In this document: one piece after another, positions 11,269-45,784 of the stretch | How positions within the stretch are numbered: position 1 is the stretch's first letter | Layout: every line of letters begins with the position of its first letter | Source of the DNA: Flaviaestuariibacter flavus | GTDB taxonomy: Bacteria; Bacteroidota; Bacteroidia; Chitinophagales; Chitinophagaceae | Length of the DNA: 64,000 bases | NCBI RefSeq assembly: GCF_004337505.1 | Contig: NZ_SJZI01000050.1 | Location: 294,853 to 358,852 of the forward strand | Direction of reading: 5' to 3' | The notes under the pieces: generated by a model | The model's database searches: none | What the model was told of the DNA's origin: nothing | What the model saw: only the letters and a program-made list of their open reading frames with translations | Position numbers and translations under genes: made by a program

Positions 11269-11811
11269 TTAGGGCCGCGGCGGGTAGAGACCCTCTACGG
11301 CAATGATATAGTTCATTCCCAGGTAGGGCATCATATTGTCGTGCGGCTGGCTGCCACCGGCAGGCTGCACTGAAGCTGGGTTCAGCGGTGTGTTGGGCGT
11401 GCCGCTGGCCAGGTAGGCCGGGTGTTGCTCCGGTTCGCGTCCGCCGGTATTTACAACGGCAAGCACGGCGCCGGCAGCGGGCACCGTCGTGTCGCCATTG
11501 GTGTTTGATACGGCAAAGCCGTGCGTATGCGCAGGCATCTGGTTACTCAGCAGCGTTACGCTTTCCGTGCCGCCCATCTGGCCAAGTTCTTTGCGGCTGA
11601 GGCCGGGTCCCTGGCCGGTGCCAACGGGAACACGGCCGGCCAGGTTGGGTAGGCCGAAGGTCGATACCCCGTCGCCGCCGTAATTGGTGCCGAGAATAGA
11701 AAACAGCGCGGAGTTTTGCGCAATTGAAAGCAGTTGTCCCGTGCAGAACATCCAGCCGCGGGGTGCGAAGGTGCCGGCAAACATCCGGATTTCGCCAATG
11801 TAAGGATCCAT
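11269..11811 (-). CDS. Phage tail-collar domain protein (microcystin-dependent type), copy 2
   Basis: A 180-residue protein with the tail-collar pattern: MDPYIGEIRMFAGTFAPRGW, CTGQLLSI, NSALFSILGTNYGGDG, then FGLPNLAGRVPVGTGQGPGLS and the His motif QMPAHTHGF. This fold is found at the tips of phage fibres and in stand-alone MdpB-like proteins of unknown role. It has no signal peptide. It is 44 bp downstream of a paralogue of equal length with long identical stretches (NTGGREPEQHPAYLASG), so the two arose by tandem duplication. No other phage genes are near. Confidence 0.85.
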   Translation of the reverse strand: MDPYIGEIRMFAGTFAPRGWMFCTGQLLSIAQNSALFSILGTNYGGDGVSTFGLPNLAGRVPVGTGQGPGLSRKELGQMGGTESVTLLSNQMPAHTHGFAVSNTNGDTTVPAAGAVLAVVNTGGREPEQHPAYLASGTPNTPLNPASVQPAGGSQPHDNMMPYLGMNYIIAVEGLYPPRP

Positions 11812-11855
11812 AAGCTTTGGTAGTTATTGGTGATTGAAATGATGAAAGCTATTTA

Positions 11856-12398
11856 TCAGGGGCGCGGCGGGAAAACGCCGTTCGTGGCGATGATGAACAT
11901 CGTGCCGATGAAGGGTTGGCGGTTTTCGTGTGGCTGGCTGCCCCCGGAAGGCTGCACCGTTGTCGGGTTCAGCGGGATCGACGGATTACCGCTGGCCAGG
12001 TAGGCCGGGTGCTGCTCCGGCTCGCGCCCGCCGGTATTTACAACGGCAAGCGATGCGCCCGCAACGGGCACTGTCGTGTCGCCGTTAACATTGGCCACGG
12101 CAAAGGTGTGATTGTGGGCCGGCATCTGGCTGTTGGTCAGGGTAACCGATTCAACGCCGCCGAGCTGTCCCTGCTCAATGCCGCTGAGGCCGGGGCCGGC
12201 GCCGATGCCTACGGGGACGCGGCCACGCAGGTCGGGTAATCCGAAGTTTGTACGGCCGTCGCCGCCGTACTTGTTACCGAGCAGCGAAAACAAAGCCTGG
12301 AATTGCGTGATCGGTACGAGGCGCCCGTCGCAGGGCAGCCAGCCATCCGGCGCGTAGCTAAATCCGATCATCTTGATCTCTCCAACATAAGGTTCCAT
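11856..12398 (-). CDS. Phage tail-collar domain protein (microcystin-dependent type), copy 1
   Basis: A 180-residue paralogue of the next gene: MEPYVGEIKMIGFSYAPDGW, CDGRLVPI, QALFSLLGNKYGGDG, FGLPDLRGRVPVGIGAGPGLS, QMPAHNHTF and the C-terminal half shared with its partner. It lies 12 bp downstream of the formyltransferase gene and is clearly in the same transcript. The conserved His of the collar motif is present (HNH, versus HTH in the partner). Role unknown; these proteins occur in tandem sets in many Bacteroidota, which I state as family knowledge without a number. Confidence 0.85.
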   Translation of the reverse strand: MEPYVGEIKMIGFSYAPDGWLPCDGRLVPITQFQALFSLLGNKYGGDGRTNFGLPDLRGRVPVGIGAGPGLSGIEQGQLGGVESVTLTNSQMPAHNHTFAVANVNGDTTVPVAGASLAVVNTGGREPEQHPAYLASGNPSIPLNPTTVQPSGGSQPHENRQPFIGTMFIIATNGVFPPRP

Positions 12399-12410: not shown

Positions 12411-13379
12411 TTAAAGTGAGGAATGAATAGCAGTAGTTATGCGTGGTTGCGCAGCAGGCTGTGCCTCGCCGAAGCGTTCGCCGCGGCCGAAGCCGAGCGC
12501 CACAAGCTTGGTCCCGGAAAAGGTGCCTTCGGGCATCCGGGCGATATTGATGCGCAGCAGCCCCCCGTCGCCGCAGCATACGAACAGGCCCTGCGCCGCA
12601 TCGGCATGTACGATCGTGCCCGCGGGTGATTTCATGCGACCATCGGCGGGACTCACTTCGAGCACCTGGAGCGGAAGACCGCGGAAGTAGGTCCGGGCAC
12701 CGCCGGCTATCGGGTTGCAGGCGTTGACCAGTGCTTCCACGGCATCGGCCTTTTGCTTCCAGTCGATGACCAGGTCGTTCTGCGCGGGACGCCGCTGGTA
12801 GCTCCGGTGATGGAGATCCTGTGCAGTCTCGGCCGGCCATTGCCCGCTGCTGCCGGCTTCGATGAGCGACAATACTAGGGCGGCCGCGGCCAAGCTGAGA
12901 CGGGCCGAGTAGAGCCCATAATTTTCTCCGGGCATCAGGGCGATCTCCTGTCTCGCCGCTACAGGGCCGGCGTCAAAGCGCCCGGTCATGCGGTGGATGG
13001 TGATACCGCCACGACGGTCGCCGTTGCGGATCTGCCAGAAAAGCGGCACCGGGCCAGCATAGCGGGGCAGCAAGCTGAAATGAATATTGTAAACCCGGTT
13101 GGCGTCCGGGAGCAAGGAAGCCGGCAGCTTCCAGGAAAAGCCGATGCAAAGCACCAGGTGATCGGGGTGCAGCAGGGTGAAAGTGAGTAATTCCTCCTCC
13201 AGGCGCGCCTTCGAAACCGCCAGGAAGGGGATGCCGTGTGCAGCGGCAAACTGTTGCAGGTCGGGTGCGTCCTGCGGAAGCGGGTCGGTCGTGTAAAGAG
13301 CATGCAGGTCGCCGTGCTCGCGGATCTTCACCAGCGAGGGCAGGGCAATGGAACTCGTCGTCAGCAGAACGATTTTCAT
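12411..13379 (-). CDS. Formyltransferase family protein (Fmt-like)
   Basis: A 322-residue protein with the 10-formyl-tetrahydrofolate transferase fold. The catalytic triad is visible: Asn98 and His100 in VYNIHFSLLP and Asp136 in GRFDAGPV. A C-terminal domain resembling that of methionyl-tRNA formyltransferase begins about residue 203 (LVIDWKQKADAVEALVNACNP). The SLLP loop continues RYAGPVP where Fmt has RxRGxAP, so the substrate may be a sugar or another amine and not Met-tRNA. Leading an operon with two tail-collar proteins also argues against a housekeeping fmt. The ATG at 13379 is the natural start. Confidence 0.8.
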   Translation of the reverse strand: MKIVLLTTSSIALPSLVKIREHGDLHALYTTDPLPQDAPDLQQFAAAHGIPFLAVSKARLEEELLTFTLLHPDHLVLCIGFSWKLPASLLPDANRVYNIHFSLLPRYAGPVPLFWQIRNGDRRGGITIHRMTGRFDAGPVAARQEIALMPGENYGLYSARLSLAAAALVLSLIEAGSSGQWPAETAQDLHHRSYQRRPAQNDLVIDWKQKADAVEALVNACNPIAGGARTYFRGLPLQVLEVSPADGRMKSPAGTIVHADAAQGLFVCCGDGGLLRINIARMPEGTFSGTKLVALGFGRGERFGEAQPAAQPRITTAIHSSL

Positions 13380-13587: not shown

Positions 13588-14544
13588 ATGAGCGATAAGC
13601 CTTCTTTCTGGCAGCGACTTGGCCTCCACGACTGGTTTGTAAACAAGCCGGAGGCCGCTGTGCCCGAGCGGAATACGGGGCTCAGTCCCGAGCGGATCTA
13701 CCAGTTCATCCAGGCACAGTTCGGGGAGTCGGTGCGCACGCTTTCCTTCGCCAACCGTGTTGTTTTTTACCAGGAATATATTGTGGTCTTTCACCCGGAC
13801 GACTATGCCCGGTTTCAGCAGGAGCGCAAAGGACTTCTCGGGATGATCGCGCAGGAATGCGTCACCGAGTTTACCCGGGTGCTGCAGGAGGCAGCGCAGG
13901 CCGGCCGCACGGTAATGCCTGCCGGCGCGCGTTGGGTTTTTCGCTTTGTGTCGCACCCCGGCTATGCACCCGGCGACCTGGGCTTTATCGGTAAGCTGCT
14001 GCCCGAGGGCGGCGGGCAGGAAGCGCAGCCGAACCTGCGCGTCACCTATATCCCAAGGCAAACGGGGCGTGCCGAAACCTCGGAGCTCAGTGCCGATTCC
14101 CTGTCGGCTTTTACCTATTATAGTGAAGGATATTACGAGCTGCCTTTCCGGCTGGAGCTGCCGTCGGGCAAGGCTTCCGGGCCTTCGGGCAGCGCCGGCG
14201 CCAACGCCCGCTTCGAGGCCATCGTGCCCGACCGGGAATATGCCGGCAAGCGCATCGAGTTCCTGATGACCGGTGACGAGGTGATGCTTACCGGTCCGGC
14301 GGATCCGCGCAACGGCGGCGATGTGTTTCGCGTGCCTTCCGAATGGGTGGATACTCCCCACCTGCACATCCGCTTTTCACGTGCCGAGAACAAGTTTTAC
14401 CTCGCCGCCTTCGGCGAAAAAACGGTCGTCAACGAAAAAGAAGCGCCCCGGAGCGCGCCGCAGCAGCCCGACTGGATCGAGCTTCCGCTCAACTCGCGGA
14501 TTGTGCTCAACGGCATCGTTGGTGTGAATTTTTATAAAGCCTGA
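13588..14544 (+). CDS. FhaA-like protein with degenerate FHA domain
   Basis: A 318-residue cytosolic protein, first gene of the kinase/phosphatase/SEDS operon. The N-terminal 130 residues (ERIYQFIQAQF, ANRVVFYQEYIVVFHPDDYARF, IAQECVTEFTRVL) resemble the FhaA N-terminal domain (DUF3662) of actinobacteria in size and pattern (...NEYIITL...F..L...). The last ~110 residues read as an FHA-like sandwich: TPHLHIRFS keeps the His after a Thr at the usual Ser site, GEKTVVNEKEAP matches the Asn turn, and the final strand is SRIVLNGIVGVNF. It probably docks phosphothreonine targets of the kinase at 20842. The start at 13588 is the only good ATG. Only four bases separate it from the next gene. Assignment is by motif, moderately sure. 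Confidence 0.7.
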   Translation: MSDKPSFWQRLGLHDWFVNKPEAAVPERNTGLSPERIYQFIQAQFGESVRTLSFANRVVFYQEYIVVFHPDDYARFQQERKGLLGMIAQECVTEFTRVLQEAAQAGRTVMPAGARWVFRFVSHPGYAPGDLGFIGKLLPEGGGQEAQPNLRVTYIPRQTGRAETSELSADSLSAFTYYSEGYYELPFRLELPSGKASGPSGSAGANARFEAIVPDREYAGKRIEFLMTGDEVMLTGPADPRNGGDVFRVPSEWVDTPHLHIRFSRAENKFYLAAFGEKTVVNEKEAPRSAPQQPDWIELPLNSRIVLNGIVGVNFYKA

Positions 14545-14547
14545 AAC

Positions 14548-14646
14548 ATGTCCGGCATTCTTTCCGTTCTCCTGCTGTTGCTGTGCGTCATCCTCGCGGT
14601 GTTGCACTTCCGCGATGTGCGCAGCTCAAACCGTACGCATGAGTGA
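14548..14646 (+). CDS. 32-residue membrane micropeptide in the operon
   Basis: ATG at 14548, three bases after the previous stop, stop TGA at 14644-14646. The product is one hydrophobic helix (ILSVLLLLLCVILAVLHF, residues 4-21) with a short charged tail (RDVRSSNRTHE). It overlaps the PP2C start by 8 nt (ATGAGTGA), so it is translationally coupled. Position corresponds to fhaB in actinobacteria, whose product begins with one TM helix, but there is no FHA domain here. It could anchor or regulate the phosphatase or synthase. Reality is supported by the coupled geometry and composition. Confidence 0.6.
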   Translation: MSGILSVLLLLLCVILAVLHFRDVRSSNRTHE

Positions 14647-15991
14647 ATCGTATTTCGGCCTTACCGATACCGGCCTTGTCCGCACCAACAACGAGGATGC
14701 GTTCCTGTTGCAACCGCTTGAAGGCGGACGCCTGCTGGCCTGTGTCATCGACGGCGTGGGCGGCTATGAAGGAGGCGAGGTGGCCGCGCGGATTGCGCGG
14801 GATGCCTTCGCGGCCGCGGCAGGCTCCATCAAAGGCGGCGCAGGCGCGCTTGCCGCGGTTTTTCCGGTGATCGAAACCGCTATGGGCAATGCTAAAACCC
14901 GGCAGCCCGAACTCGCCCAGATGGCTTGTGTGCTGACGGCGCTGCTGGTGGACGAAGCCGCTGCCACCTTTTATTACGCGCATGTCGGTGACACACGGCT
15001 TTACCTCTATCGCGACGCTTCGCTGGTGAAGATCTCCCAGGATCATTCTTTTGTAGGGATGCTTGAAGACAGCGGGCGCATCACCGAGGCAGAGGCCCTT
15101 GCCCACCCGAAGCGCAACGAGGTAGACCGGGCGCTCGGTTTTGGAGCAATAGGCAATGACGCCGGGGCCTACGTGGAAACAGGGGACTCGCCTTTTCTTC
15201 CCGGCGATCTGCTGCTGCTGTGCAGCGACGGGCTTACCGACCTGCTGACACGTGCCGAGATCGCCGCACACCTGCAGGCGCCGGTTAGCCTGGAGCAAAA
15301 AGCCGGTGCGCTTGTGCGGGCCGCGAATGAAAAAGGCGGAAAAGATAATATCACGGTGGTGCTCGTAGCCCATCGCAGCGGACGTTCGGGGCCGGCTCCC
15401 GTGGGCCAGCCAAGAAAAGTGGAACGAAAGCCGGAGCCCGCGGAAATTCCGGAGAAGCCGGTTTATACTCCGGCCCCGGCGCGGCAGGCTCGGGTTTCAC
15501 CCTGGCCCTGGATCGCCGCCGCGCTTCTGCTGGTGGTTGCAGCCTGGTGGCTGCTGCGAAAAAAAGATCCGGAGGTGCCGGTCGCCCCCGCGCCGTCGCA
15601 GCCGCCCACCCTGGTGCAGGCACTGGCTGCCGGAGGGGACACCTTATTACTTGACCAGGTAAATAATACATCGGGAATCGCGCTTCCGGATACGGTCCGC
15701 CTGGAGCGCGATACGCTGCACCTCGTAGGCCGCGATACCACTTTGCTTCGCCCGGAAGCCGGCCATACGGTACTCCAGGTGGCGCCCACGGTAAAGCTGC
15801 TTTCGTTCGGGCGGCTCGAATTACGCGATGCCGACATCCGTGTAAGCAGCAGCAACGTTTCGGCCCTGCGCTTTGATTCGGTGCGTCTTCGCAACGTGTC
15901 GATCGGGGTGGCGCATCCACTGTTTTTCCGCGACACCATTATCACCGGCGCTTTGTACAGCACATACAAAAAAGGAGGTGCCCGTGACTAA
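14639..15991 (+). CDS. Membrane PP2C-type Ser/Thr phosphatase (PstP-like)
   Basis: A 450-residue protein. Residues 1-245 are a complete PPM/PP2C domain: RTNNEDAFLL (Glu19, Asp20), VIDGVGGYEGGE (Asp38, Gly39), AHVGDTRLYLY, LLCSDGLTDLL (about 195-203) and KGGKDNITVVLV with the last metal-binding Asp236. A Pro-rich linker, a TM helix (WPWIAAALLLVVAAWWLL, 289-306) and a ~135-residue outer domain of strand repeats follow (VRLERDTLHLVGRDTTLLRPEA..., possibly a beta-helix). It should reverse the kinase at 20842 as PstP does PknB. The chosen ATG overlaps the upstream micropeptide by 8 nt; its own end overlaps the SEDS gene by 8 nt. Confidence 0.92.
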   Translation: MSESYFGLTDTGLVRTNNEDAFLLQPLEGGRLLACVIDGVGGYEGGEVAARIARDAFAAAAGSIKGGAGALAAVFPVIETAMGNAKTRQPELAQMACVLTALLVDEAAATFYYAHVGDTRLYLYRDASLVKISQDHSFVGMLEDSGRITEAEALAHPKRNEVDRALGFGAIGNDAGAYVETGDSPFLPGDLLLLCSDGLTDLLTRAEIAAHLQAPVSLEQKAGALVRAANEKGGKDNITVVLVAHRSGRSGPAPVGQPRKVERKPEPAEIPEKPVYTPAPARQARVSPWPWIAAALLLVVAAWWLLRKKDPEVPVAPAPSQPPTLVQALAAGGDTLLLDQVNNTSGIALPDTVRLERDTLHLVGRDTTLLRPEAGHTVLQVAPTVKLLSFGRLELRDADIRVSSSNVSALRFDSVRLRNVSIGVAHPLFFRDTIITGALYSTYKKGGARD

Positions 15992-18900
15992 GCGCCGCAC
16001 CGAACGGGTGTTACTGCTCGCCATCGCGCTGGTGCTCGGCGGGCTGTTCGCCTTGCTTTACCGGAAGCAGGAAGCCGACTTCGCCGCCGTACCGCAGCGG
16101 CTTTCGGAGGGCACCATGGTGAACCTCAACGCCGATCCCAACGGCGAGGCACTCGCCCGCCTGCTGCTGGATCAATATTATTTTGAAGACCCGCGCGATG
16201 TGCGCCTCATAAAAGAAGCGGTTGCATCGGGCCGCCAGTCGGTGACGGAGCTGGACAATACCGGCGCGCTCAACAAGCGGCCCTTCCTGGTGCCTGCCGG
16301 GGATGCCCTGGCGCGCGGCGGCACCGCGCTCCAGAAACGCGCGCGCCTGGCCAATCGCCTCATCGGCTTTGATGGACCGGATTCGATGCGTTACCTCCAG
16401 GAAAAGAAAGCGCCACCTCCGCTACCCGCGGTGCAGCAATTGGCGATGGGCCGTGGTGCTCTTGCCGGTACTATCCGCGATGCCGCGGGTCTGCCCGCGG
16501 CGGGCGTGCTGGTGCGGCTTGAGCGGGTGTTGCCGCAAGACAGCAGTGCCGGCACCGACGCCGAGGCGGCGGTTGATCTGCTGAAAGACGGACTGCGCTA
16601 CCGCCGCGCACCGGGAGCGCAGCCGGTTTGGGTGGCGGCCTATGCCCGCACCGATGCTTCGGGCAACTGGCGCTTCGAAGGCCTTGCCGAAGGCGCCGCT
16701 TACGAGGTGCTGCCGCTGCAACCGGGGTATACTTTCGGGCCGGTAAAGGGTGTCGCTGAATTAAAGGGTACCGCCCGCCGAGCATTTACAAGAAGTCCCC
16801 TGACACTGCGGCTGTTCTCCGGCCGCGATTTCAACCTGCTGAAACGCGAAGGAGCGCTCATCGTGCGCACACCGGACGAAGCCCGGACCTGGTTCTGGGT
16901 TATTGGTGTCGGTATCCTGGTCATCTTCCTGTTGCTGCACCTGTTCCTGAGCGCGCGCCTGCCGGGCACCGACCCGTTTTTGTTACCGCTCCTGATGCTG
17001 CTCACCGGGCTTTCTTTCCTGACCCTGCTCAGCCTGCAGGATCCTTTACGCGACCGCTTCCTGGCACGCAGCACATTTTGGTATTTCCTGGCCGGGATGG
17101 TGGGCGTTTTCGTTGTGCTGCTATTCAATATGGCCCGCTTTACACCGGATGCCGGGGCTTACCGGATGTTTGCCGTAAAAGGCCGAAAGGGTGAGCGTGG
17201 CCTGCAATGGGGCCTTGCCGCGCTTGCCCTGCTGGTGGCCACTATCATTTTCGGTAGCGGCCCCGAGGGCAGCGGCGTCAAGGTAAACCTCTTCGGCTTC
17301 CAGCCCAGTGAGAGCATCCGCTTCCTGATCGTATTATTTCTTGCCGGTTTCTTTGCAGCCAACGAGCGGCTGATCTCCGAGTATGCAACCGCGCGCCGCA
17401 GATGGTCGTTCTTCTACCCGGCCCTCGCTGCGGTGGCCGGAACGATCCTGCTCTTTCTCATGCTTGGCGACCTGGGACCTGCGCTCGTTGTGTGCTTTAC
17501 GTTTATCGTGCTGTTTTCCTTCAGCCGCGGCGATTTCTGGATCATGGCCGCCACCGTAGCACTCTTTGTGCTGGCCAACCTGGTTATCGGCAATCCGCTC
17601 ATCGCCACGGGCGTTACCGTAGTTCTACTGTCTGTCTACCTGCGTTTCTTTTACAAGCGCCTTTCCGAATCCTCGGTGATTGCACTCACGGTGCTGGCCG
17701 GCTTCTTATTGCTCGACCAGGTGCCGATGCTTGACCGGCTGTTTCCCGGCCCCGTGCAGCGGCTTGTAGACCGTCGGGCGATCTGGCAAAACCCCTGGGA
17801 CAACGAAGTGTTCGGCGGCGACCAGATCGCCAACGGCATCTGGGGCATGGCTTCCGGTGGTGCCAGCGGACAGGGGATCGGTGAAGGTTTTGCCAAGACA
17901 ATCCCCGAAGCGCATACCGACATGATCCTTCCCGCGATCGGGGAGGAGCTCGGCTGGGCGGGTGTTGTTTGTCTCTTCCTGCTTTTCTTGGTTTACCTGC
18001 ACCGCGCGCTGCTGATCGGCCGAGCCACGGGGCGGCCCTTCCTGTTCTATCTCTGTGCCGGTATCGGTATCAGCACTTTTATCCAGTTCCTGCTGATCGC
18101 GGGCGGCTCTACCGGCGCCCTGCCGCTCTCCGGTATCACCTTACCTTTTATCAGTTACGGAGGCTCATCGCTGATCATCAACCTGGTGGCCGCGGGCTTC
18201 CTGCTGTCCGCATCTTTCGTACGCGGCAGCGAGGCGCAACTCGATTACGTACGCCGGCGGCAGGACCACAACCTCGTGCCCGCGATGGCGGTGGCCCTGC
18301 TTGGAATCGTAGCGCTTTCCGTAAACCTGGGGCGCTACCTCTTTCAGCCCGCGCGCTGGGTGGTGCAGCCGGCACTGGTTGCTGATCGTTCGGGCGCCCG
18401 CATGTTCAGCTACAACCCGCGCATCGCCATCCTGATGAACCGCCTCGAAGCAGGTGCGTTGTACGACCGCGAGCATCGCCTGGTGGCAACGAGCCGGAGT
18501 GAGCACCTGCTGCGGCAGCGCGATACGCTGCTTAGCGGCGGCGTTACTCCCGGTGCGCTCACCCGCCTATCGCGGCGCCGTCTCGACCGCTATTATCCCT
18601 ATGGCGACGAACTCTTTTTCTGGACCGGCGATGCCAACACCGGCGTGTTTACCGGCTCGCTCAACGGCTGGTTTGGCGAGTACCGGATGGCGGCCGAACT
18701 CCGCGGATTTTCCACACCTGAAACGACATACGAGGTGCGGGCGCATCATTACCGCGAAAGCCGCTTCCTGCCGCCTTCCGAGCGCGATATGACCGTGGTG
18801 GGGCGCGATTACAGTGCACTCGCCCCCTTGCTCCTCGCGGGTATCGACAGTAAGGAAGTAGAATCCTTTAAACAACGCAACCGCGATGTGCAGCTCAGTA

Positions 18901-20051
18901 TCGATGCAGCCCTGCAAACCGCCTTGCAACGCGGCCTCGCGGCTTCAGATTCGCTGCGCGACAACCGCGTTTCGATCGTGGTGCTTTCCGATCGCAGCGG
19001 CGATGTGCTTGCTTCTGCCTGCTGGCCGCTGCCGCCCACCGAAGACTGGGAGGCGCTTACGATGACGCCGCGCGAGGCTGCGCGCCAGCCCTGGCTGCTC
19101 ACCCTGCGCGACCTGGGTTTTTCGCATGCCACCCAGCCCGGATCTACAGCCAAGCTTGCAACGGCCCTCGCTGGATTGAACAAATACGGCCCCGAGCTGG
19201 CGGAAAAGAAATTGCTGATCCGTCCGCAGGACCTGATCCGCGTGCGCAGCGCCGAGCCCGACGAGCCGGGTATGATCGGGATGGAGCGCGCCATCGTTAA
19301 ATCGAACAACAGCTATTTTATTAAGCTGGCCAACGAAATGAAGCTGCAGGAGGAGATGGCGACGATTTACCTGCAGACCGGGATGTTCTGGCGTGGTGTC
19401 GGTGGCTACTTTTATGAGCGCCCGATCAACAACGGTGCACGCGAAGAAAGCTGGCGCGACCTGTGGCGCCGCACGGAATTTACCAGCCTGCGCCGCTATA
19501 ATCCGAATGATATCCGCCGCACGCGCGGGCAAGGCGTTTCCGGCGCCGCCTGGGGCCAGGGTGAGCTTACCGCAACGCCTGCCGCCGTGGCGCGGCTCGC
19601 CGCAGGTATTGCCAATGGCGGCGCACTGGTGCCCCATCGGATTGTTTTGAAGATCGCCGACTCAACGCTGCCGGTAAAAAACGCCGAGCCCATCGCGCAC
19701 ACGCCGCAGCTGGCACAACTCCTCACCGGCTTCATGAAAGCGCAAAGTGCAGGCAAGCGCGGCATACTCGGTCTCACCGTTGCCGGTAAAACCGGAACTC
19801 CGGAGCGGATTTTGCGGGGACAGCGCATCAACGACGGCTGGTACGTGTTTTTTGCCCCGGCATCCAGAGGCGACGGAAATATCGTGTGCTGCATTCGTAT
19901 TGAAGCCACAAAGGGCTCGAGCGATGCGGTTCAGCTGGCGGGCAGGCTGGTGATCCCAGAACTGCTCCGCCGGGGATATGTACGTAGCTTTCCCGGCGCC
20001 GGCGCTACCGATTCAATGATCCGCATCCGTCCCCTGCCACCAAACGAATAA
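15984..20051 (+). CDS. SEDS (FtsW/RodA) glycosyltransferase - class B PBP fusion
   Basis: A 1,355-residue peptidoglycan synthase joining two enzymes usually made separately. Order: TM1 (residues ~9-27); periplasmic segment with a carboxypeptidase-regulatory-like domain (~159-255, LAGTIRDAAGLPAAGVLVRL...TDASGNWRFEGL); SEDS domain (~300-745) with GQGIGEGFAKTIPEAHTDMI, GEELGWAG and LPFISYGGSSLI; a further TM (~762-787); then a transpeptidase with STAK (Ser1054), SNN (1107-1109) and KTG (1269-1271). The start is GTG at 15984 behind AAAGGAGG, overlapping the PP2C stop by 8 nt (GTGACTAA); GTG at 15978 is also in frame. All catalytic motifs are intact, so it should polymerise and cross-link glycan by itself. 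Equivalent to rodA plus pbpA in the actinobacterial kinase locus. Confidence 0.93.
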   Translation: MTKRRTERVLLLAIALVLGGLFALLYRKQEADFAAVPQRLSEGTMVNLNADPNGEALARLLLDQYYFEDPRDVRLIKEAVASGRQSVTELDNTGALNKRPFLVPAGDALARGGTALQKRARLANRLIGFDGPDSMRYLQEKKAPPPLPAVQQLAMGRGALAGTIRDAAGLPAAGVLVRLERVLPQDSSAGTDAEAAVDLLKDGLRYRRAPGAQPVWVAAYARTDASGNWRFEGLAEGAAYEVLPLQPGYTFGPVKGVAELKGTARRAFTRSPLTLRLFSGRDFNLLKREGALIVRTPDEARTWFWVIGVGILVIFLLLHLFLSARLPGTDPFLLPLLMLLTGLSFLTLLSLQDPLRDRFLARSTFWYFLAGMVGVFVVLLFNMARFTPDAGAYRMFAVKGRKGERGLQWGLAALALLVATIIFGSGPEGSGVKVNLFGFQPSESIRFLIVLFLAGFFAANERLISEYATARRRWSFFYPALAAVAGTILLFLMLGDLGPALVVCFTFIVLFSFSRGDFWIMAATVALFVLANLVIGNPLIATGVTVVLLSVYLRFFYKRLSESSVIALTVLAGFLLLDQVPMLDRLFPGPVQRLVDRRAIWQNPWDNEVFGGDQIANGIWGMASGGASGQGIGEGFAKTIPEAHTDMILPAIGEELGWAGVVCLFLLFLVYLHRALLIGRATGRPFLFYLCAGIGISTFIQFLLIAGGSTGALPLSGITLPFISYGGSSLIINLVAAGFLLSASFVRGSEAQLDYVRRRQDHNLVPAMAVALLGIVALSVNLGRYLFQPARWVVQPALVADRSGARMFSYNPRIAILMNRLEAGALYDREHRLVATSRSEHLLRQRDTLLSGGVTPGALTRLSRRRLDRYYPYGDELFFWTGDANTGVFTGSLNGWFGEYRMAAELRGFSTPETTYEVRAHHYRESRFLPPSERDMTVVGRDYSALAPLLLAGIDSKEVESFKQRNRDVQLSIDAALQTALQRGLAASDSLRDNRVSIVVLSDRSGDVLASACWPLPPTEDWEALTMTPREAARQPWLLTLRDLGFSHATQPGSTAKLATALAGLNKYGPELAEKKLLIRPQDLIRVRSAEPDEPGMIGMERAIVKSNNSYFIKLANEMKLQEEMATIYLQTGMFWRGVGGYFYERPINNGAREESWRDLWRRTEFTSLRRYNPNDIRRTRGQGVSGAAWGQGELTATPAAVARLAAGIANGGALVPHRIVLKIADSTLPVKNAEPIAHTPQLAQLLTGFMKAQSAGKRGILGLTVAGKTGTPERILRGQRINDGWYVFFAPASRGDGNIVCCIRIEATKGSSDAVQLAGRLVIPELLRRGYVRSFPGAGATDSMIRIRPLPPNE

Positions 20052-20057
20052 GCAACC

Positions 20058-20849
20058 ATGGGTTTTTTTGACCGATTTAAAACAAACGAAGCCACCGACG
20101 CGAAGTCCATCCGCGAAGGGCTTTTATATGCGATCCGTAGCCGGCTTTCAGCGTTCCAGGGCAACGAAGGACAGGGGCTGCGCAGCCTGCACCTTTTCCT
20201 CACCCCGACGCCTGCCGGGCGTGCCGAATACGAGGCGGCCGTGTTTTTCCATGAGCCCGGGCGCCTGCATCAGGAGGTGGCGCGCATTGCCGACGACTAC
20301 AACCTGGCGCTGCCCGCCGCCTGGGAGCTGAAGACACAGTTTTGCGAAACGCTACCGGAGGAGGCTGAGCCGGTGCCGGCGCTGGCAGCGGGTATCTGGA
20401 TCGCCACGGGCTCGAAGGCCGCGCCGGCTGTGGGCGCCGCGCAGCTGCGGGTGCTCGCCGGCGTAGCGGAGCAGCAGCTCTACCCGCTGCCAACCGACGG
20501 TAGCCGGGTCAATATCGGGCGGGGCGCCCAGGCGCAGCTGCCCGACGGCTTTGCCCGTATTAATACGGTGGCGTTCACGGATGATGCAACGCTTGAAGCC
20601 AACCGCTTCGTGTCGCGCCAGCACGCACATATCCGCTACGACGCGGGGCTGGGGCAGTTCCTGCTTTTCGCCGACGCGGGCGGCCTGCCGCCGCACAACA
20701 AAACCAAGGTGAAGGGCGCCGGCGATGCGGCCGCGATCAAGCTGCAGAGCGCTGAAGTGCCACACCTGCTGCGGCATGGCGACCAGATCATCCTGGGCCA
20801 CTCGGCCCTGCTCGAATTCATCACCGGTAAAGCAGAAGCGCATGGGTAA
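20058..20849 (+). CDS. FHA domain protein
   Basis: A 263-residue cytosolic protein starting 6 bp after the SEDS-PBP stop. An N-terminal ~100-residue domain of unknown type (IREGLLYAIRSRLSAF, LHLFLTP, LHQEVARIADDYNLALP) precedes a canonical FHA domain (~150-255) with Gly154-Arg155, Ser186 and His189 (RFVSRQHAHI), Asn214, and the closing HGDQIILGHSALLEF. Such domains bind phosphothreonine peptides, most simply those made by the kinase whose gene overlaps this one by 8 nt (ATGGGTAA). Unlike the FHA of the 13588 gene, all ligand-contact residues are kept. Confidence 0.9.
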   Translation: MGFFDRFKTNEATDAKSIREGLLYAIRSRLSAFQGNEGQGLRSLHLFLTPTPAGRAEYEAAVFFHEPGRLHQEVARIADDYNLALPAAWELKTQFCETLPEEAEPVPALAAGIWIATGSKAAPAVGAAQLRVLAGVAEQQLYPLPTDGSRVNIGRGAQAQLPDGFARINTVAFTDDATLEANRFVSRQHAHIRYDAGLGQFLLFADAGGLPPHNKTKVKGAGDAAAIKLQSAEVPHLLRHGDQIILGHSALLEFITGKAEAHG

Positions 20850-22764
20850 AGTGTTTACCATTACGGCAGGACTCGAGAACATGGGCGCGCTGAAGACCGG
20901 CGGACAAGGTTCTGTTTACAAAGGCCGGCGCGTAGGTGAGATCATCACCGCGGTAAAGCTGCTGCCAACGCCGATCCATTCCGAGTCGCCCGAAGACAAG
21001 CATTATATGGCCTTCCAAAACGAAGTGGCGAAGCTGCGTAAAGTGAATGAAGTGCCCAACCCGCACGTGGTGCGGATCCTGAGTTCTGGCCTTACGGAGA
21101 GCGGTTCCTTTCCATTCATCGAGATGGATTTCGTGGAAGGCCCCGACCTTGAGGAGTTGCTGAAAGCGCCGCATGATCCCGTATTCACCATCAAGGAAGC
21201 AGTCCGCCTCGCCGACCAGTTGTCGAATGCGCTGGCGCACTGCCACCGCGTAGGTGTGAAGCATGGCGATGTAAAAAGCAATAACGTAAAGTACAACGTT
21301 CATACCGGCAACTATGTACTGCTCGACTTCGGGATGGCCATTATGTCGGACGAGCAGCGCCGCACCAGCCTGCGGCATGCGGGTGCCATCGAGTTTATGG
21401 CGCCGGAGCAGAATAACGGCGAGATCCTTTTCCAGACCGACGTGTACAGTTTTGGTGTCATCCTCTTCGAGCTGGTTGCAGGTTCGGTGCCTTTCCCGCT
21501 CAGCGAGCGGGGTGAGACGGCGCGTACGCAGGTGATGCTGGCTCATATGGAAGCGCCGCCGCCCGACCTGATGGAATTACGCCGCAGGAACCTCCCCGCG
21601 GGTTGGAGCGAAGAGAAGCAGGCGCGCGAGCTGCAGGTGCCGCAGTGGCTCATCGACACGGTTTATATCTGCCTGCAGAAGGCACCGCAGAGCCGCTTTA
21701 GCGATGGCATGGTGTTGCACGATCATATCGTGCTCCGCAGCACCCAAAAGCCGGAGGCTGCCGAAGTGTTTCTTTCTGCTGCCCCCGCGGCGGCTTTTGA
21801 AAGCGAATTGCAGCAGTTGCGGCAGGAGAACGAAGAGCTGCGCCGGCGGGTGCAGCAACTACAGGCGCGCCAGGAAGAGCCACAAAGCTATACGCCTGCC
21901 TACGTGCCGCCACGCCGGCGCAGCAACGCAGGCCTTATTTCGGTGTTGCTGGTACTCGCCGTGCTGGGCGTTGCAGCCTGGCTGGTGATCAAAAAGCCAG
22001 GGATGGTGAATAAGGAAGCTGCCGCTCCCATAACCCAAACAGACAAAGGAACAGAAACGCTTGTAGCCGGCCAGTACATGGTGAAGGCGGCACGCGCTTA
22101 CTTCTATGATCGCCCCGACGCAGCGTCACGGCGTAATGCGTATATGGTGCCTTCATCGGAAGTGGTGAATACGACGAAAGAAGACAACGGTTTCGTCTAT
22201 ACCGATTTCGTCAACAGCCGCGGGCAGCGTTCCAGGGGTTGGCTGCGGGTCCGCGACCTGATGACGCTGGACCAATGGAACGACCAAACGCGGAAGCAGG
22301 AAGAAGCCGCACTGACGCAGGAGGAGATCAACCGCCAGCTGACGGAGGCCCGCAGCCGACTTGAGTCGGGGCAACTGCAGGAAGCACTTTTCCTTTACCA
22401 GTTCCTGGCGGCAAAGGAGGTGCCGGAGGCGATGTATGAATACGGTAACCTGGGCCTCCAGGGACGCCACAGCGCTCTCAGCTGCAAAGACGCGTTTGTG
22501 CTGGTGCAGAAGGCCAGCGACAAACGATATGTGCCTGCAAAACGCACGCTCGGCTTTCTCTATGTGTTTGCCGACAACCCCGAGGTGCTGCGGGTGAATA
22601 ATTACGACGGCTGCACCTACGACCGCGATGTATTCAAAGGCTCCAAGCTGCTGCTCGAGGCAGCGGCGAAAGGCGACGAGGCCGCGCGGAAGCTCGTGGA
22701 GGAATTTCACCTCGACGATCCGGCTACCAATGCTCCCAATAACAACCAGCAATACCTTCCCTGA
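20842..22764 (+). CDS. Transmembrane Ser/Thr protein kinase with SH3b and Sel1-like outer region
   Basis: A 640-residue PknB-like kinase. Kinase domain ~10-290: KTGGQGSVYKG (P loop), Lys39 (TAVKLL), Glu61, catalytic loop VKHGDVKSNNV (Asp143, Asn148), LDFG (Asp162) and MAPEQ (187-189). The HRD arginine is Gly142, so it is a non-RD kinase. A Glu/Gln coiled coil (~325-345) and TM (~365-384) follow. The outer part has an SH3b-like domain (~409-473, YFYDRPDA...GWLRVRDL) and Sel1/TPR-like helices (~505-630) in place of PASTA repeats. It overlaps the FHA gene by 8 nt and the next gene by 1 nt. The likely targets are the FHA partners and the synthase. Confidence 0.92.
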   Translation: MGKVFTITAGLENMGALKTGGQGSVYKGRRVGEIITAVKLLPTPIHSESPEDKHYMAFQNEVAKLRKVNEVPNPHVVRILSSGLTESGSFPFIEMDFVEGPDLEELLKAPHDPVFTIKEAVRLADQLSNALAHCHRVGVKHGDVKSNNVKYNVHTGNYVLLDFGMAIMSDEQRRTSLRHAGAIEFMAPEQNNGEILFQTDVYSFGVILFELVAGSVPFPLSERGETARTQVMLAHMEAPPPDLMELRRRNLPAGWSEEKQARELQVPQWLIDTVYICLQKAPQSRFSDGMVLHDHIVLRSTQKPEAAEVFLSAAPAAAFESELQQLRQENEELRRRVQQLQARQEEPQSYTPAYVPPRRRSNAGLISVLLVLAVLGVAAWLVIKKPGMVNKEAAAPITQTDKGTETLVAGQYMVKAARAYFYDRPDAASRRNAYMVPSSEVVNTTKEDNGFVYTDFVNSRGQRSRGWLRVRDLMTLDQWNDQTRKQEEAALTQEEINRQLTEARSRLESGQLQEALFLYQFLAAKEVPEAMYEYGNLGLQGRHSALSCKDAFVLVQKASDKRYVPAKRTLGFLYVFADNPEVLRVNNYDGCTYDRDVFKGSKLLLEAAAKGDEAARKLVEEFHLDDPATNAPNNNQQYLP

Positions 22765-23219
22765 TGCGCATCAAACCCGTACGGATACTGGCGTTCGTGG
22801 CTGTTTTAATTACGGTGTTCGCGGCCTCTTGTTCCACCCCCGAATACCACCAGGGAAACAGCATTCTCTATTACCCGCAACGCGACGCCTACCGCGATGA
22901 GGAGAACGGCGTTTACCTCGTATTCGACAGCGTGGAGCAGCAATGGACGCGCAGGGATACGTTGGAAGGAAGCCCCGGGCCCGCGGTGCGTATTGCCGAT
23001 CCAGGCGTGCCGGTGTACCGCGACAATGCCCAGCACCGGCTCATTTATGGTACAGCGCGCTTTGCCGACCGCGACGAGCTGGCACGAAAACGGGTCGAGG
23101 ATTCACTTGCGGCCGTGCCGAAACTAGCGCCACCGCCCCCGCCTGAAGAGGCTCCAAAGCGGAAGACCCGCGTGGGCCGGTGGCTGGAGAAGATTTTCGG
23201 AAAGAAGGAAAAGCAATAA
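22764..23219 (+). CDS. Lipoprotein, last gene of the kinase/SEDS operon
   Basis: A 151-residue lipoprotein with lipobox FAASC (Cys at about residue 23). The mature part has DEENGVYLVFDSVEQQWTRRD and a Pro-rich then basic tail (APPPPPEEAPKRKTRVGRWLEKIFGKK). It begins within the kinase stop codon (TGATG), so coupling is tight. The basic tail could contact membrane or glycan. Family not recognised; by position it may help the synthase or the outer domains of the kinase and phosphatase. Confidence 0.75.
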   Translation: MRIKPVRILAFVAVLITVFAASCSTPEYHQGNSILYYPQRDAYRDEENGVYLVFDSVEQQWTRRDTLEGSPGPAVRIADPGVPVYRDNAQHRLIYGTARFADRDELARKRVEDSLAAVPKLAPPPPPEEAPKRKTRVGRWLEKIFGKKEKQ

Positions 23220-23297: not shown

Positions 23298-25220
23298 ATG
23301 CTTCCTTTTGCAACCATCAAACTGCGCTCAACAGGGCTTTTGCTGCTATGCCTGCTTTTCCTGCCGGCGGGGGCACAGGTGCCTGCACCGCCAATCGATT
23401 CGATGATCCGCGTCATACCCGGGCTCATGCGCAGCGACGAGCCGGCAGCGCGTATCCTGATCAGCGCCCTCGACCAAAGAGCTGTCCGTGAAAATCACCG
23501 CCATGGCATCATACAGGCGGCCTTTTTTAATTCCTGGCTTAGCTACCGGCACGAAGCGCCCGAGCGTTCAATTCAAAAGATCGACAGCGCACTCGGCAAG
23601 ATCGCGGGCATCAACGACGATACCGCCCTGGTAAAATATTATATCCTGAAAGGTCAATGCTATGTGAAGCTGGCCGACTTCGGCAAGGCGCTGGCGGAAT
23701 TCAACAATGCCCTTCGTGTGGCCCGGAAGCGCGGCGATGATGTGAGTGCAACGAGTACGATGATCAGCATCGGCTGGGCTTATATGGAGAGCGGAAAGCC
23801 GCTGGAGGCGATTCGCTTTTTCGACGAGGTGCTGCGGATCAACCCCGGCGCGCAATACGATCACCGGTCGGTGCTGTTGTGCAACATTGCTTCGTGCTAC
23901 AATATGGTCGGCGATTTTAAGAAAGGGGAGCAGTACGCGCGGCAAGGCATCTCCATTGCGCGCAGCCGCGGCAACCATATCGACCTGGGCAACGGGCTCA
24001 ATATCCTGGGGCGCAGCTATTATATGCAGGGACGGATGAAGGAAGCCCTGGCGATGCTCCAGGAAGCCGCCCTTACCCGTGAAAAGATTTCCGATCCATC
24101 TATGCTGGCATCCGACTACCTCGAGCTCGCCGACCTTTTTCGCAAAAACGGGCAGCCCGGGAAAGCTGTTTTGTGGGCAAGTAAATCGGAAGCCCTGAGC
24201 GCGCGCCTTGGCAACAACCTGAAGCTCACCGACGCCTATAAAGCGCTCGCCGAAAGCTACGAGTCGCTCGGCAACGACGCCATGGCGGCCCGCTACCTGA
24301 AGAAGCTTCTGGCGCAAAAAGACAGCGTGGAAGCCGATCGCTATAACCGTGCTTTTGCAGAAATGCAGGTGCAATTTGAAACGCAAAAGAAAACAACAGA
24401 GAACCTGCGCCTGAAAAAGGAGAACCTCGAGGCGAAGCTGCGCAACAGCCTGCAGCAACGCTGGCTCCTGCTGCTTGGCGCCGTGGCCTTGTTGCTGGCG
24501 GCCTCGGGTATTTATGTGTCGAAGCTGCTGAAAAGCCGCTACCAGACCCGGCTGGCGCTGGAGCAGATCGGTGAGCAGCGCCAGCGTACCATCGCGGTAA
24601 TGCAGGCCGAAGAAGCCGAGCGTCGCCGCATCGCCGGTGAGCTGCACGACGGCGTAGCGCAAACGCTGGCCGCCGCAGCCTTGCAGCTGGCAAAAGCGCG
24701 CTCGGGCCAGGCCAGCCTCGACCGGGTGGAAAACCTGCTGGAGCAAGCCGGCACCGAGGTGCGCTCCCTGTCGCACCAGATGACACCCGAACTGCTGCTC
24801 CATTTTGGGTTGGCCAAAACAATGGCCCAGGCGGTGAATGAACTCAACGACGCGGGCCCGAAAACCCGCTTCACCCTCTTTACACATGTAGACGGGCCGC
24901 TCCACGACAACCTGCTATCGCTGGCCCTGTACCGTTCTTTCCAGGAATTGTGCACCAATATCCTGAAACACTCGGAAGCCACCGAAGCCACCGTGCAGCT
25001 GACGATCGACGGGGAGGAAGTGCAGTTGATCGTTGAAGACAACGGCAAGGGCTTTGACCCGGCTACCGCAGCTGCGGGTCTCGGGCTGAAGAACCTCCAA
25101 AGCCGTATGGCTTTTTACGAGGGAAGCGTAGCCGTGGATAGTACCCCGGCAAAAGGCAGCACCATCATCCTCCAGGTAAAACGTCCTCAAACCAATAAAG
25201 AAAATGGGCAACTTGGCTAA
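23298..25220 (+). CDS. TPR sensor histidine kinase (HisKA_3)
   Basis: A 640-residue protein with a signal peptide (LLLLCLLFLPAGAQ), six or so tetratricopeptide repeats in the periplasm (residues ~60-350), a coiled coil, TM (~390-410), and a cytosolic NarL-type kinase: ERRRIAGELHDGVAQTLAAA with His450, NILKHSEA, DNGKGFDP and GLGLKNL. This layout is a common Bacteroidota sensor design. The downstream response regulator gene overlaps by 17 nt and is the obvious partner. A likely ligand is unknown. Confidence 0.93.
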   Translation: MLPFATIKLRSTGLLLLCLLFLPAGAQVPAPPIDSMIRVIPGLMRSDEPAARILISALDQRAVRENHRHGIIQAAFFNSWLSYRHEAPERSIQKIDSALGKIAGINDDTALVKYYILKGQCYVKLADFGKALAEFNNALRVARKRGDDVSATSTMISIGWAYMESGKPLEAIRFFDEVLRINPGAQYDHRSVLLCNIASCYNMVGDFKKGEQYARQGISIARSRGNHIDLGNGLNILGRSYYMQGRMKEALAMLQEAALTREKISDPSMLASDYLELADLFRKNGQPGKAVLWASKSEALSARLGNNLKLTDAYKALAESYESLGNDAMAARYLKKLLAQKDSVEADRYNRAFAEMQVQFETQKKTTENLRLKKENLEAKLRNSLQQRWLLLLGAVALLLAASGIYVSKLLKSRYQTRLALEQIGEQRQRTIAVMQAEEAERRRIAGELHDGVAQTLAAAALQLAKARSGQASLDRVENLLEQAGTEVRSLSHQMTPELLLHFGLAKTMAQAVNELNDAGPKTRFTLFTHVDGPLHDNLLSLALYRSFQELCTNILKHSEATEATVQLTIDGEEVQLIVEDNGKGFDPATAAAGLGLKNLQSRMAFYEGSVAVDSTPAKGSTIILQVKRPQTNKENGQLG

Positions 25221-25857
25221 TGCGAATCCAGTCACGATCGTTCTTGCGGACGATCACGAAATCCTGCTCGATGGCATCGGCTCGATCCTGGCGGAGCAGC
25301 CGTGGCTTCGTATTGTGGGCAAGGCCGCTTCGGCGGAGGCCGCCCTGGCACTCGTGGAAAAGCTGCAACCCGCACTGCTGATTACCGATGTGAGTATGGG
25401 GGAGCGATCGGGGCAATGGCTTACCGAGCAGGTTTCGAAACGTTTTCCATTGATGAAGATCATGGTGCTGTCGATGCATGAAGGCGTGCAGCATATTCAT
25501 GCACTCCTGGAAGCCGGCGCCGATGCCTACCTCCTGAAAAGCGTCAAGCAGGACGAGCTGTTGCATGCCATCGGTCAGGTGATGAAAGGAGAGCGTTACC
25601 TGCAGCAATCCATCGCCGGAACTTACACGCGCGGGCTGCGCCAGCACCAGGAGGCAGAGCGCCAAAGCCGCCTCTCGCCCCGTGAGATCGAGGTGCTGCG
25701 CCTCGTGGTGGAAGGCCTGTCTTCCGCGGACATCAGCGCGCGCCTGTTCCTGTCGGAGCTCACGGTAGAAACCCATCGCAAGAACATCGGGCGCAAGACC
25801 GGCGCGAAGAATGCTATCAGTCTTGTTCGTTATGCGCAGGAGCACGGACTGCTGTAA
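25204..25857 (+). CDS. LuxR/NarL-family response regulator
   Basis: A 217-residue two-domain regulator. The receiver has the acidic pair DDHE, the phospho-accepting Asp62 in LLITDVSMG, and Lys in YLLKSV. The C-terminal GerE/LuxR helix-turn-helix reads LSPREIEVLRLVVEGLSSADISARLFLSELTVETHRKNI (shown here only as its signature; residues ~155-193). It overlaps the TPR kinase gene by 17 nt and precedes a promoter with a 14-bp palindrome at 25869, which may be its target. Confidence 0.93.
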   Translation: MGNLANANPVTIVLADDHEILLDGIGSILAEQPWLRIVGKAASAEAALALVEKLQPALLITDVSMGERSGQWLTEQVSKRFPLMKIMVLSMHEGVQHIHALLEAGADAYLLKSVKQDELLHAIGQVMKGERYLQQSIAGTYTRGLRQHQEAERQSRLSPREIEVLRLVVEGLSSADISARLFLSELTVETHRKNIGRKTGAKNAISLVRYAQEHGLL

Positions 25858-25938: not shown

Positions 25939-26661
25939 ATGAAGAAGGCGCTCCTTACGAAACTTACCTTTTGCCTGCTGGCGATCGGCTCCCTTTTTCT
26001 CATGCCCGCAACCGCGCAGGCTCAGTCGCGCGACGAAATCATACACGCCAGCTACTTTGTAGCTTTCGGGCGTTATGCGAATGCTGGTGAACTGGCCTAT
26101 TGGCGCCAGAACCTCGGCAACCGCAATATCCAGCAGATGGTAGACAATCACAAGACCTACCTGCGCTCAACCCAATCGGAACGGGAGGAAACGGTGAAGC
26201 GCTCCTTCATGGATGCTTTCGGATGGAACCCGAGCAGCCAGGAGTTGCGCCAGTGGTCGGGCCAGAACAAGACCTACGCCGAGATGATGAGCTACCACAT
26301 CAACAACTGGCTCAATGTATACCCCGACCGGAAGGCGCACGTGATCAAGCAATCCTATTACAAGGTTTTCGGACGCACTGCCAATGCCGACGAGCTCCGC
26401 TACTGGATGGCACAACCGACCTGTTCCTTTGCGCAGCTGGTGGCTATGCATACGACCTGGAAGCTGCAGAACCAGGGCTCGTCGAAGATGGGACAGATCA
26501 AGCCGAACATGCGCGAGAACGGTATTTCTACTGCCGCCCTCAGTTCCGGCGCGATGGCCGGCGTAGTGGCCGCGGGTGGCATGAACATCATTGCGCCCAA
26601 TGGTGGCCAGGTGGTGGCGGCCGGAGGAATGAACGTGGTGGCACCGGGTGGCGGCAACTGA
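25939..26661 (+). CDS. Secreted DUF4214-like repeat protein
   Basis: A 240-residue protein with signal peptide (FCLLAIGSLFLMPATAQAQ). Three tandem helical modules follow: IIHASYFVAFGRYANAGELAYW (~33-54), VKRSFMDAFGWNPSSQELRQW (~88-108) and IKQSYYKVFGRTANADELRYW (~135-155), the FGR.an..EL.YW pattern of DUF4214. The tail has Gly/Ala-rich repeats AAGGMN(I/V)(I/V)AP. A similar single module opens the C39-like protease 36 bp downstream, suggesting co-function. Surface or secreted role likely; no enzymatic motif. Confidence 0.75.
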   Translation: MKKALLTKLTFCLLAIGSLFLMPATAQAQSRDEIIHASYFVAFGRYANAGELAYWRQNLGNRNIQQMVDNHKTYLRSTQSEREETVKRSFMDAFGWNPSSQELRQWSGQNKTYAEMMSYHINNWLNVYPDRKAHVIKQSYYKVFGRTANADELRYWMAQPTCSFAQLVAMHTTWKLQNQGSSKMGQIKPNMRENGISTAALSSGAMAGVVAAGGMNIIAPNGGQVVAAGGMNVVAPGGGN

Positions 26662-41969: not shown

Positions 41970-42204
41970 TTACGAAGCTGATTGCATATCGTTATCAATC
42001 GGCAACAATTGTCCGGAGGTCGATTTGCCGCATCGGATGCGAGAAATACCGCTAGCACTGCAATGTCTTTGGGGTCAGCAAATTGTTTAATCGACCGCAC
42101 TTGCATGGTATTTCTGCTTCCAAGTCACCCAGGGCATAAAAAGCTTTTGCAATTTCTTTCCCGATACCTGCTGCGCCTGCTGTGATGGAAATCCTTTTGT
42201 TCAC
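41970..42204 (-). pseudogene. Short-chain dehydrogenase, internally deleted and frameshifted
   Basis: The minus strand begins VNKRISITAGAAGIGKEIAKAFYALG, the N-terminal TGxxxGIG fold of an SDR. After a few residues it reads, in another frame, MQVRSIKQFADPKDIAVLAVFLASDAA, the C-terminal SDR segment; one more frame change gives STSGQLLPIDNDMQ before the stop at 41970. Most of the central enzyme, including the YxxxK active site, is gone. It is a remnant of a gene once in this redox operon. Confidence 0.75.
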
Positions 42205-42236
42205 GAAACCTATTTTGATTGTTATTACTGCGCGCT

Positions 42237-43861: not shown

Positions 43862-43881
43862 GTCAGCACCATTAACTGATT

Positions 43882-44376: not shown

Positions 44377-44410
44377 TTTATAATGTTTTATTGGTTGTTG
44401 TGAATGTTTT

Positions 44411-45073: not shown

Positions 45074-45093
45074 TTTTATTGTTTTCGATAACA

Positions 45094-45101
45094 CAAAACT
45101 A
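45094..45101 (-). promoter_or_regulatory. -7 element TAGTTTTG of the redox operon
   Basis: Exact TAnnTTTG on the minus strand, about 20 nt before the ATG at 45073. The -33 position lacks TTTG, which would fit an activator-dependent promoter; a Crp/Fnr-like site lies about 50 bp further upstream. Confidence 0.55.
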
Positions 45102-45145
45102 CCGCCATACCCTGCCCTGTTCCATTACGTTCAGGCAAGAAAAAC

Positions 45146-45163
45146 CATTGACTTTTGTCAATG
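45146..45163. promoter_or_regulatory. Crp/Fnr-type binding site
   Basis: CATTGAC-TTTT-GTCAATG is a perfect 7-4-7 inverted repeat with the TTGAC-N4-GTCAA layout of Crp/Fnr boxes. Its centre lies about 67 bp upstream of the predicted start of the redox operon, a usual class I activator position, and just beyond the end of the Crp/Fnr gene. Confidence 0.6.
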
Positions 45164-45182
45164 AGACGGGCAGTGAAAGCCG

Positions 45183-45767: not shown

Positions 45768-45784
45768 CTGTTTCAGTTATTGTA

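Follow-up and report, generated by a model that had tools for sequence, protein, structure and literature searches.

We propose that a seven-gene operon at positions 13588-23219 of the + strand of a 64,000-nucleotide stretch of the Flaviaestuariibacter flavus genome (the window; positions 294853-358852 of contig C50) encodes an accessory synthase of peptidoglycan that is controlled by Ser/Thr phosphorylation, and that the operon is a remodelled homologue of the actinobacterial fhaA-pstP-rodA-pbpA-pknB locus; we put the probability of this reading at roughly two in three. A preliminary description of the window had named the operon a Bacteroidota counterpart of that locus, and this identification is supported by the fold of the FhaA-like protein, conserved synteny, a SEDS tree (99/99) and topology tests on the transpeptidase. 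All seven open reading frames (ORFs) of the packed cluster that it had delineated are present on the + strand at this span, in the order FhaA-like protein, microprotein, PP2C phosphatase, SEDS-transpeptidase fusion, second FHA protein (FHA2), kinase and lipoprotein:

13588..14544, + strand: FhaA-like protein, 318 aa, with a predicted FhaA_N-fold N-domain (~13672-14010) and a degenerate FHA domain (~14206-14541)
14548..14646, + strand: single-helix membrane microprotein, 32 aa, ending HFRDVRSSNRTHE, with a small ORF at the same position in relatives
14639..15991, + strand: membrane PP2C phosphatase of the Stp1/PstP type (PF13672, PP2C_2, 1.4e-12), with a transmembrane (TM) helix at residues 288-306
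15984..20051, + strand: one-chain SEDS glycosyltransferase and class B transpeptidase, 1355 aa (PF01098, 7.6e-44; PF00905, 1.2e-20)
16062..16880, + strand: predicted periplasmic extension of the fusion, with a carboxypeptidase-regulatory-like part (PF13620, 2.4e-5, under the cut-off)
20058..20849, + strand: FHA2, with an N-domain of no assigned fold and an FHA domain (PF00498, 7.6e-5; GR/SRQH/N signature)
20842..22764, + strand: membrane Ser/Thr kinase, non-RD (PF00069, 4.2e-30), with a TM helix at residues 365-383
22764..23219, + strand: small predicted lipoprotein, an optional neighbour (the sequence shows a Cys following a hydrophobic signal)

Neighbouring ORFs overlap by 8 bases at three junctions (microprotein/PP2C, PP2C/SEDS and FHA2/kinase) and by 1 base at the kinase/lipoprotein junction, while the remaining junctions are gaps of 3 and 6 bases; the operon is therefore likely to form one transcript with coupled translation. 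The promoter and terminator scans were weak (6 promoter-like sites against 2.9 expected and 18 terminator-like sites against 11.6 expected), and a tandem-repeat scan found none. The sole Pfam kinase, Pfam FHA and Stp1-type PP2C matches (E <= 0.001) of the window genome, a 3.96-Mb assembly that is 86% complete, fall within the operon, PP2C genes being counted with the Stp1-type model alone.

A search of genome contigs for the fusion brought up 206 relatives, and the 80 best of these were kept for locus comparison; they include Mucilaginibacter, Pedobacter, Segetibacter, Ferruginibacter and Flavisolibacter, and we take them to be Chitinophagaceae, Sphingobacteriaceae and near kin. The preliminary description had made its reading depend on the genes staying together in relatives. 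The genes for the FhaA-like protein, PP2C, the fusion and FHA2 are found in one order and on one strand in 76 of the 80 loci, and the other four (L027, L048, L068 and L079) are without the full core because their contigs end there. The kinase gene lies upstream, downstream or on both sides of this core; it was not seen in six loci, and in each of these the contig breaks off on at least one side of the operon.

The synthase is a single chain, as had been claimed: the Pfam families FTSW_RODA_SPOVE and Transpeptidase match the same ORF, which starts with GTG at 15984. The HTD motif of the SEDS half and the SxxK, SxN and K[TS]G motifs of the transpeptidase half do not vary in any of the 81 ungapped rows (80 loci and the window). 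An N-terminal extension ahead of the SEDS domain is predicted to consist of a TM helix, a periplasmic domain and a second TM helix; it is conserved in 21 aligned rows and has partial matches in other classes. Three SEDS proteins, identified from the tree and their neighbours as FtsW, RodA and the fusion, are encoded in each of eight genomes tested. In the SEDS tree, which comprises 38 rows with long branches and thin actinobacterial sampling, the fusions constitute one clade (100/100) that sits away from the other SEDS proteins of the same genomes and joins the RodA proteins encoded in the Tsukamurella and Nocardia loci, a SEDS protein from a Streptomyces plasmid and one from Monoglobus (99/99); no locus gene was recognised in 5.8 kb around the Streptomyces plasmid gene. 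Approximately unbiased (AU) tests, carried out on groups chosen after the SEDS tree had been seen, rejected the grouping of the fusion SEDS domain with Bacteroidota RodA (p 0.0003) or FtsW (p 0.0198), as well as that of the fusion transpeptidase with PBP2 (p 0.021) or PBP3 (p 0.002). A grouping of the fusion transpeptidase with PbpA of the locus was not rejected (0.228), and the best tree does not group the two. The third SEDS protein in all eight genomes and the rejected host groupings agree with the earlier proposal that this synthase is separate from the dcw and mre systems.

The FhaA-like protein is connected with actinobacterial FhaA through its fold. It has no Pfam match at E <= 1 and no NCBIfam match; among 18 FhaA-like members, Pfam reports an FHA domain in two (best 0.011) and FhaA_N (PF12401) in none at E <= 10. 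In the whole window genome PF12401 has a single match, which falls inside the FhaA-like gene (E 0.48, 12.5 bits against a cut-off of 25), and in eight other carrier genomes it has no match in the FhaA-like gene and one match elsewhere (G033). A sequence search of the PDB with the FhaA-like protein gave weak matches only. An AlphaFold model of the N-domain, built from 18 sequences (predicted local distance difference test score, pLDDT, 90.8), was compared by Foldseek with 350,542 PDB chains, and the best match is 2LC0, the N-terminus of Rv0020c/FhaA (E 2.2e-4, TM-scores 0.57/0.51). This is the only match with E <= 0.001, the next being RNase E chains (2.8e-3, TM-score 0.43 of the query), and the best Foldseek matches of the full-length model (pLDDT 70.4) are FHA domains, with E from 1.7e-5. 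Thus, the FhaA-like assignment of the preliminary description is borne out by the fold of the N-domain, though Pfam misses FhaA.

Sequence profiles link the protein stepwise to deeper relatives. Three of these, from other classes of the phylum (L115, L116 and L117), have clear FHA domains (2.4e-12, 1.2e-9 and 1.1e-8, respectively) and FhaA_N matches of 7e-5, 1.1e-3 and 5.2e-3, all under the curated cut-off. A profile built from these proteins and Tsukamurella FhaA detects each of the five intermediate proteins, with E-values from 1e-20 to 5e-5; it also reaches the 18 core proteins, though weakly (best 3.5e-6, window 0.008, worst 1.1). With the intermediate profile, every one of the 18 core proteins is recovered at 4e-33 or better; all of these E-values are those for very small sequence sets. 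In profile-profile comparison, the intermediate and core groups align over nearly the full length. The FHA signature decays along the series, in the rows shown, from IGR/VSREH, which is retained in the three deep relatives, through IAR/VSNPH to VSG/VNTPH-like forms. The GR and SRxH residues of the FHA domain are presumably those that bind phosphothreonine, and the graded decay of this site hints at which part of FhaA is indispensable.

The PP2C, FHA and kinase assignments made earlier are supported by the Pfam matches listed above. The PP2C is 37.7% identical to Tsukamurella PstP over 252 columns (E 1.7e-34) and matches the NCBIfam Stp1 model NF033484 at 8e-53, under the cut-off of that model; none of its motif aspartates varies in the ungapped rows (77 or 78), one TM helix follows the PP2C domain in 76 of 78 ORFs, and the outer domain has no Pfam match. 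FHA2 keeps the signature residues G, R, S, R, H and N in 80 of 80 rows, and PF00498 is found in all 18 aligned members at E <= 10, with 1.6e-6 as the best value; a profile comparison of FHA2 with the FhaA-like protein returned a 22-column FHA match with a probability of 4.7. The FHA2 protein of one distant locus (L117:13479-14753) carries an N-terminal Swt1-like HEPN domain (PF18731, 7.4e-22). The catalytic Lys, Glu and DFG of the kinase are kept in 121 of 122 rows. The SH3b/Sel1 outer domains proposed in the preliminary description find no support, as the best Pfam matches of the window kinase ectodomain are only CYTH (0.048) and TPR_16 (0.084); among the eight kinase ectodomains scanned, SH3_3 appears at 0.14 in one (L008) of the six from the core clade. 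The lack of PASTA repeats that it had stated holds, with no Pfam PASTA match in the window kinase or in ten kinases of related loci, and for two deep-locus kinases PASTA does not figure in the respective lists of the 25 best families. The lipoprotein has a chance-level Pfam match only (0.14) and nothing useful in NCBIfam, and its relatives occur in 11 of the 80 loci.

All 76 relatives that have both the FhaA-like and PP2C genes carry a short ORF between the two, which encodes a single hydrophobic helix and a tail resembling HFxDIK (75 loci by pattern, with L002 added separately); no ATG-started version was seen in L007, L015, L022 and L074. The median ratio of non-synonymous to synonymous substitution rates is 0.244, obtained from 312 of 967 equal-length pairs that are not independent of each other. 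Judged by its sequence, the one-helix micropeptide reported earlier is conserved and under purifying selection. A comparable peptide with the tail HF(Q/K/R)(D/N)LP is present in L105, L106, L111 and L118-L120.

At the level of the whole phylum, the FhaA-like profile matches 9 of 395 genomes, and within the family 11 of 147. The fusion extension matches 18 of the 395 phylum genomes, namely the nine FhaA-like carriers, six further genomes (G269, G013, G034, G131, G030 and G179) whose open frames span 1222-1387 aa, and three genomes that match weakly (G021, G250 and G389). Neighbourhoods were compared in 11 of 15 phylum genomes (the window included, and all but G131, G214, G363 and G379) and in three family-level genomes: FHA2 adjoins the fusion in all 14 (11 of 11 and 3 of 3, respectively), and the PP2C and kinase are present in 12. 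On a 136,743-bp circular plasmid of Spirosoma oryzicola, the genes stand in a row as FHA-PP2C-kinase-kinase-fusion-FHA. G179 encodes the PP2C, SEDS and transpeptidase domains in one 1384-aa ORF. Across 114 genomes of its order, a fusion frame of more than 1200 aa occurs in seven among the listed matches, with PP2C in frame in G179 only; in G538, the PP2C match and the fusion match are on separate contigs, the latter at the end of its contig, which leaves no basis for judging a triple fusion there. The triple ORF of G179 is thus either a lineage event or, possibly, an assembly slip. A second fusion copy with one in-frame TAG was noted in G131 (C121:6101-9088).

The patchiness of the FhaA-like gene in the phylum and family, the module on the Spirosoma oryzicola plasmid and the presence of FtsW and RodA alongside the fusion in eight of eight genomes would also suit a conditional back-up or stress synthase, which acts in wall repair or under beta-lactam or envelope stress rather than in normal growth and has spread as an accessory module. 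This explanation is compatible with the reading preferred here, and we regard it as rather unlikely: no constantly linked stress regulator was seen, as judged from the histidine kinase and response regulator downstream of the operon, relatives of which lie near the operon in 3 and 14 of the 80 loci.

Several observations weigh against an accessory synthase that is under phosphorylation control and homologous to the actinobacterial locus. The distribution is patchy (9 of the 395 phylum genomes), and two genomes of family f19 (G034 and G013) have the fusion and FHA2 with no PP2C or kinase within 19 kb around the fusion; an ORF of the FhaA type is present in each, checked with Pfam only in G034. 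Which kinase occupies the operon differs between lineages: WD40-repeat kinases are encoded a little upstream of the FhaA gene in L116 (698-3127) and L117 (1604-4117), and a kinase with its own C-terminal FHA domain (PF00498, 3.4e-10) directly follows FHA2 in L114 (14654-16042). The window-clade kinase has HGD for HRD, Gly standing in for Arg in all 122 rows, and is therefore non-RD; HRD is found in 12 of 13 kinases of more distant loci, with no motif found by pattern in one. FhaA-like proteins of the window clade are without the usual phosphothreonine signature (VSG/LTG and VNTPH-like in the rows shown). A direct BLAST comparison of the window protein with Tsukamurella FhaA shows no similarity (E 2.2), and the deep FhaA profile aligns with the intermediate or core profile over the FHA part only, so that the link through the N-domain rests on the fold. 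Finally, the fusion branch in the SEDS tree is long (1.04 changes per column), and the tree includes only two locus-linked actinobacterial RodA sequences.

The missing BLAST similarity of the FhaA-like protein, together with an FHA2 that matches Tsukamurella FhaA only weakly, in the FHA region (E 0.08), and does not match FhaB, and the heterogeneous kinases in which PASTA was not found, could be explained by convergent assembly, i.e., Bacteroidota uniting kinase, phosphatase, FHA and SEDS-PBP genes independently of Actinobacteria. We consider this improbable in view of the fold in common with Rv0020c, the stepwise core-intermediate-deep links between FhaA profiles with PF12401 at 7e-5 to 5e-3 in the deep members, the 99/99 SEDS grouping and the collinear FhaA-PP2C-SEDS-PBP-kinase order; the locus is probably homologous to the actinobacterial one. 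The signalling genes might instead serve another process, such as secretion or phage defence, with the synthase as a passenger; FHA-PP2C-kinase trios also occur in type VI secretion, and the window kinase matches PADLOC kinase models (PD-T4-6, 8e-41). This is very improbable, since the PADLOC matches are kinase-only, with nothing at E <= 0.01 for the five further proteins that were scanned, and the synthase and FHA2 stay adjacent even where the PP2C and kinase are lacking.

For the phosphorylation-controlled accessory synthase, we propose the following scheme. The SEDS half would polymerise lipid II and the transpeptidase half would cross-link the product; with both activities in a single chain, polymerisation and cross-linking would be held permanently in 1:1 register. 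The outer domain of the kinase would read an envelope signal, and the kinase would phosphorylate Thr residues on itself, the synthase or its partners. FHA2, with its intact phosphothreonine-binding signature, would dock on these residues, and the PP2C would reset the switch. The FhaA-like protein may serve as the scaffold of the complex and, since its FHA domain has lost the signature, would probably keep its partners assembled with no need of phosphate, and the microprotein would probably be a small membrane subunit. By analogy with the actinobacterial locus, we infer that wall synthesis may here be phospho-gated. The full combination, in which a third, one-chain Bacteroidota synthase is gated by phosphorylation, has a microprotein as membrane subunit and FhaA turned into a constitutive scaffold, exchanges its sensor kinases and can be carried on a plasmid, is more tentative, and we would give it somewhat less than even odds.

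Directly downstream of the operon, a TPR histidine kinase and a LuxR-type response regulator are encoded at 23298-25857 (+ strand); they are probably outside the operon because their relatives occur in so few of the 80 loci. They are followed by a DUF4214 protein (25939-26661) and a C39-like peptidase (26698-27537, + strand; PF13529, 6.7e-6). Upstream, on the - strand, there are a divergent formyltransferase-like gene (12411-13379; PF00551, 1.7e-14; PF02911, 6.1e-12) and genes for two tandem 180-aa phage tail collar domain proteins (11269-12398; PF07484, 1.7e-27 and 1.8e-27). Positions 42001-46000 have a G+C content of 45-46%, against mostly 56-62% around, contain small ORFs and adjoin tRNA-Arg(cct) at 45894-45966; this stretch was possibly acquired.

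Kinase-controlled wall growth has been studied mainly in Actinobacteria and Firmicutes. A locus in Gram-negative Bacteroidota that holds the only Pfam kinase, Pfam FHA and Stp1-type PP2C matches of its genome offers a simple and non-pathogenic setting for phosphorylation steering a SEDS-PBP (penicillin-binding protein) synthase. Among the papers listed by a literature search, with most subscription journals outside it, no title or visible start of an abstract describes such a Bacteroidota locus, and the accessible part of PMC8262863 is without anything on a SEDS-transpeptidase fusion of this kind. According to the accessible text of PMC6554272, actinobacterial pstP shows linkage to rodA, pbpA and the gene for the PASTA kinase; clusters of pknB with fhaA reach some Firmicutes, and all Firmicutes have the pstP-pknB link. 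As far as the available portion of PMC11898655 goes, FhaA binds the flippase MviN in its phosphorylated form, and both an inhibiting and a promoting role in wall synthesis have been proposed for FhaA.

The operon resembles the actinobacterial locus in its FhaA-type N-domain, membrane PP2C, RodA-clade SEDS protein, class B transpeptidase, membrane Ser/Thr kinase and FHA partner. The annotated order of the Tsukamurella locus (L113) is fhaA-fhaB-rodA-pbpA-STPK-pknB; as an unannotated PP2C lies between fhaB and rodA, the FhaA-PP2C-SEDS-PBP-kinase order is collinear with that of the window. However, three defining features of the actinobacterial locus are not shared by the window operon: separate rodA and pbpA genes, in whose place SEDS and PBP form one chain with an added periplasmic domain; the PASTA repeats of PknB, which were not found in kinases that vary in number and type; and the phosphothreonine site of FhaA, the signature of which is lost in the window clade. 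In addition, FHA2 follows the synthase and does not match FhaB, and the window clade has the extra microprotein. The clostridial Monoglobus cluster (L156) is similar in that an FHA gene is followed by SEDS and PBP genes, with the SEDS protein in the same 99/99 group, whereas its SEDS and PBP are unfused and no kinase or PP2C is annotated within 7.6 kb. The RodA-PBP2 and FtsW-FtsI synthases (PDB 8tj3, 6pl5 and 8bh1) share the HTD and SxxK/SxN/KTG motifs, and the same two activities are expected for the fusion. They consist, however, of separate proteins and belong to separate tree clades, whereas the natural fusion would fix the stoichiometry of a complex that is formed elsewhere by two proteins.

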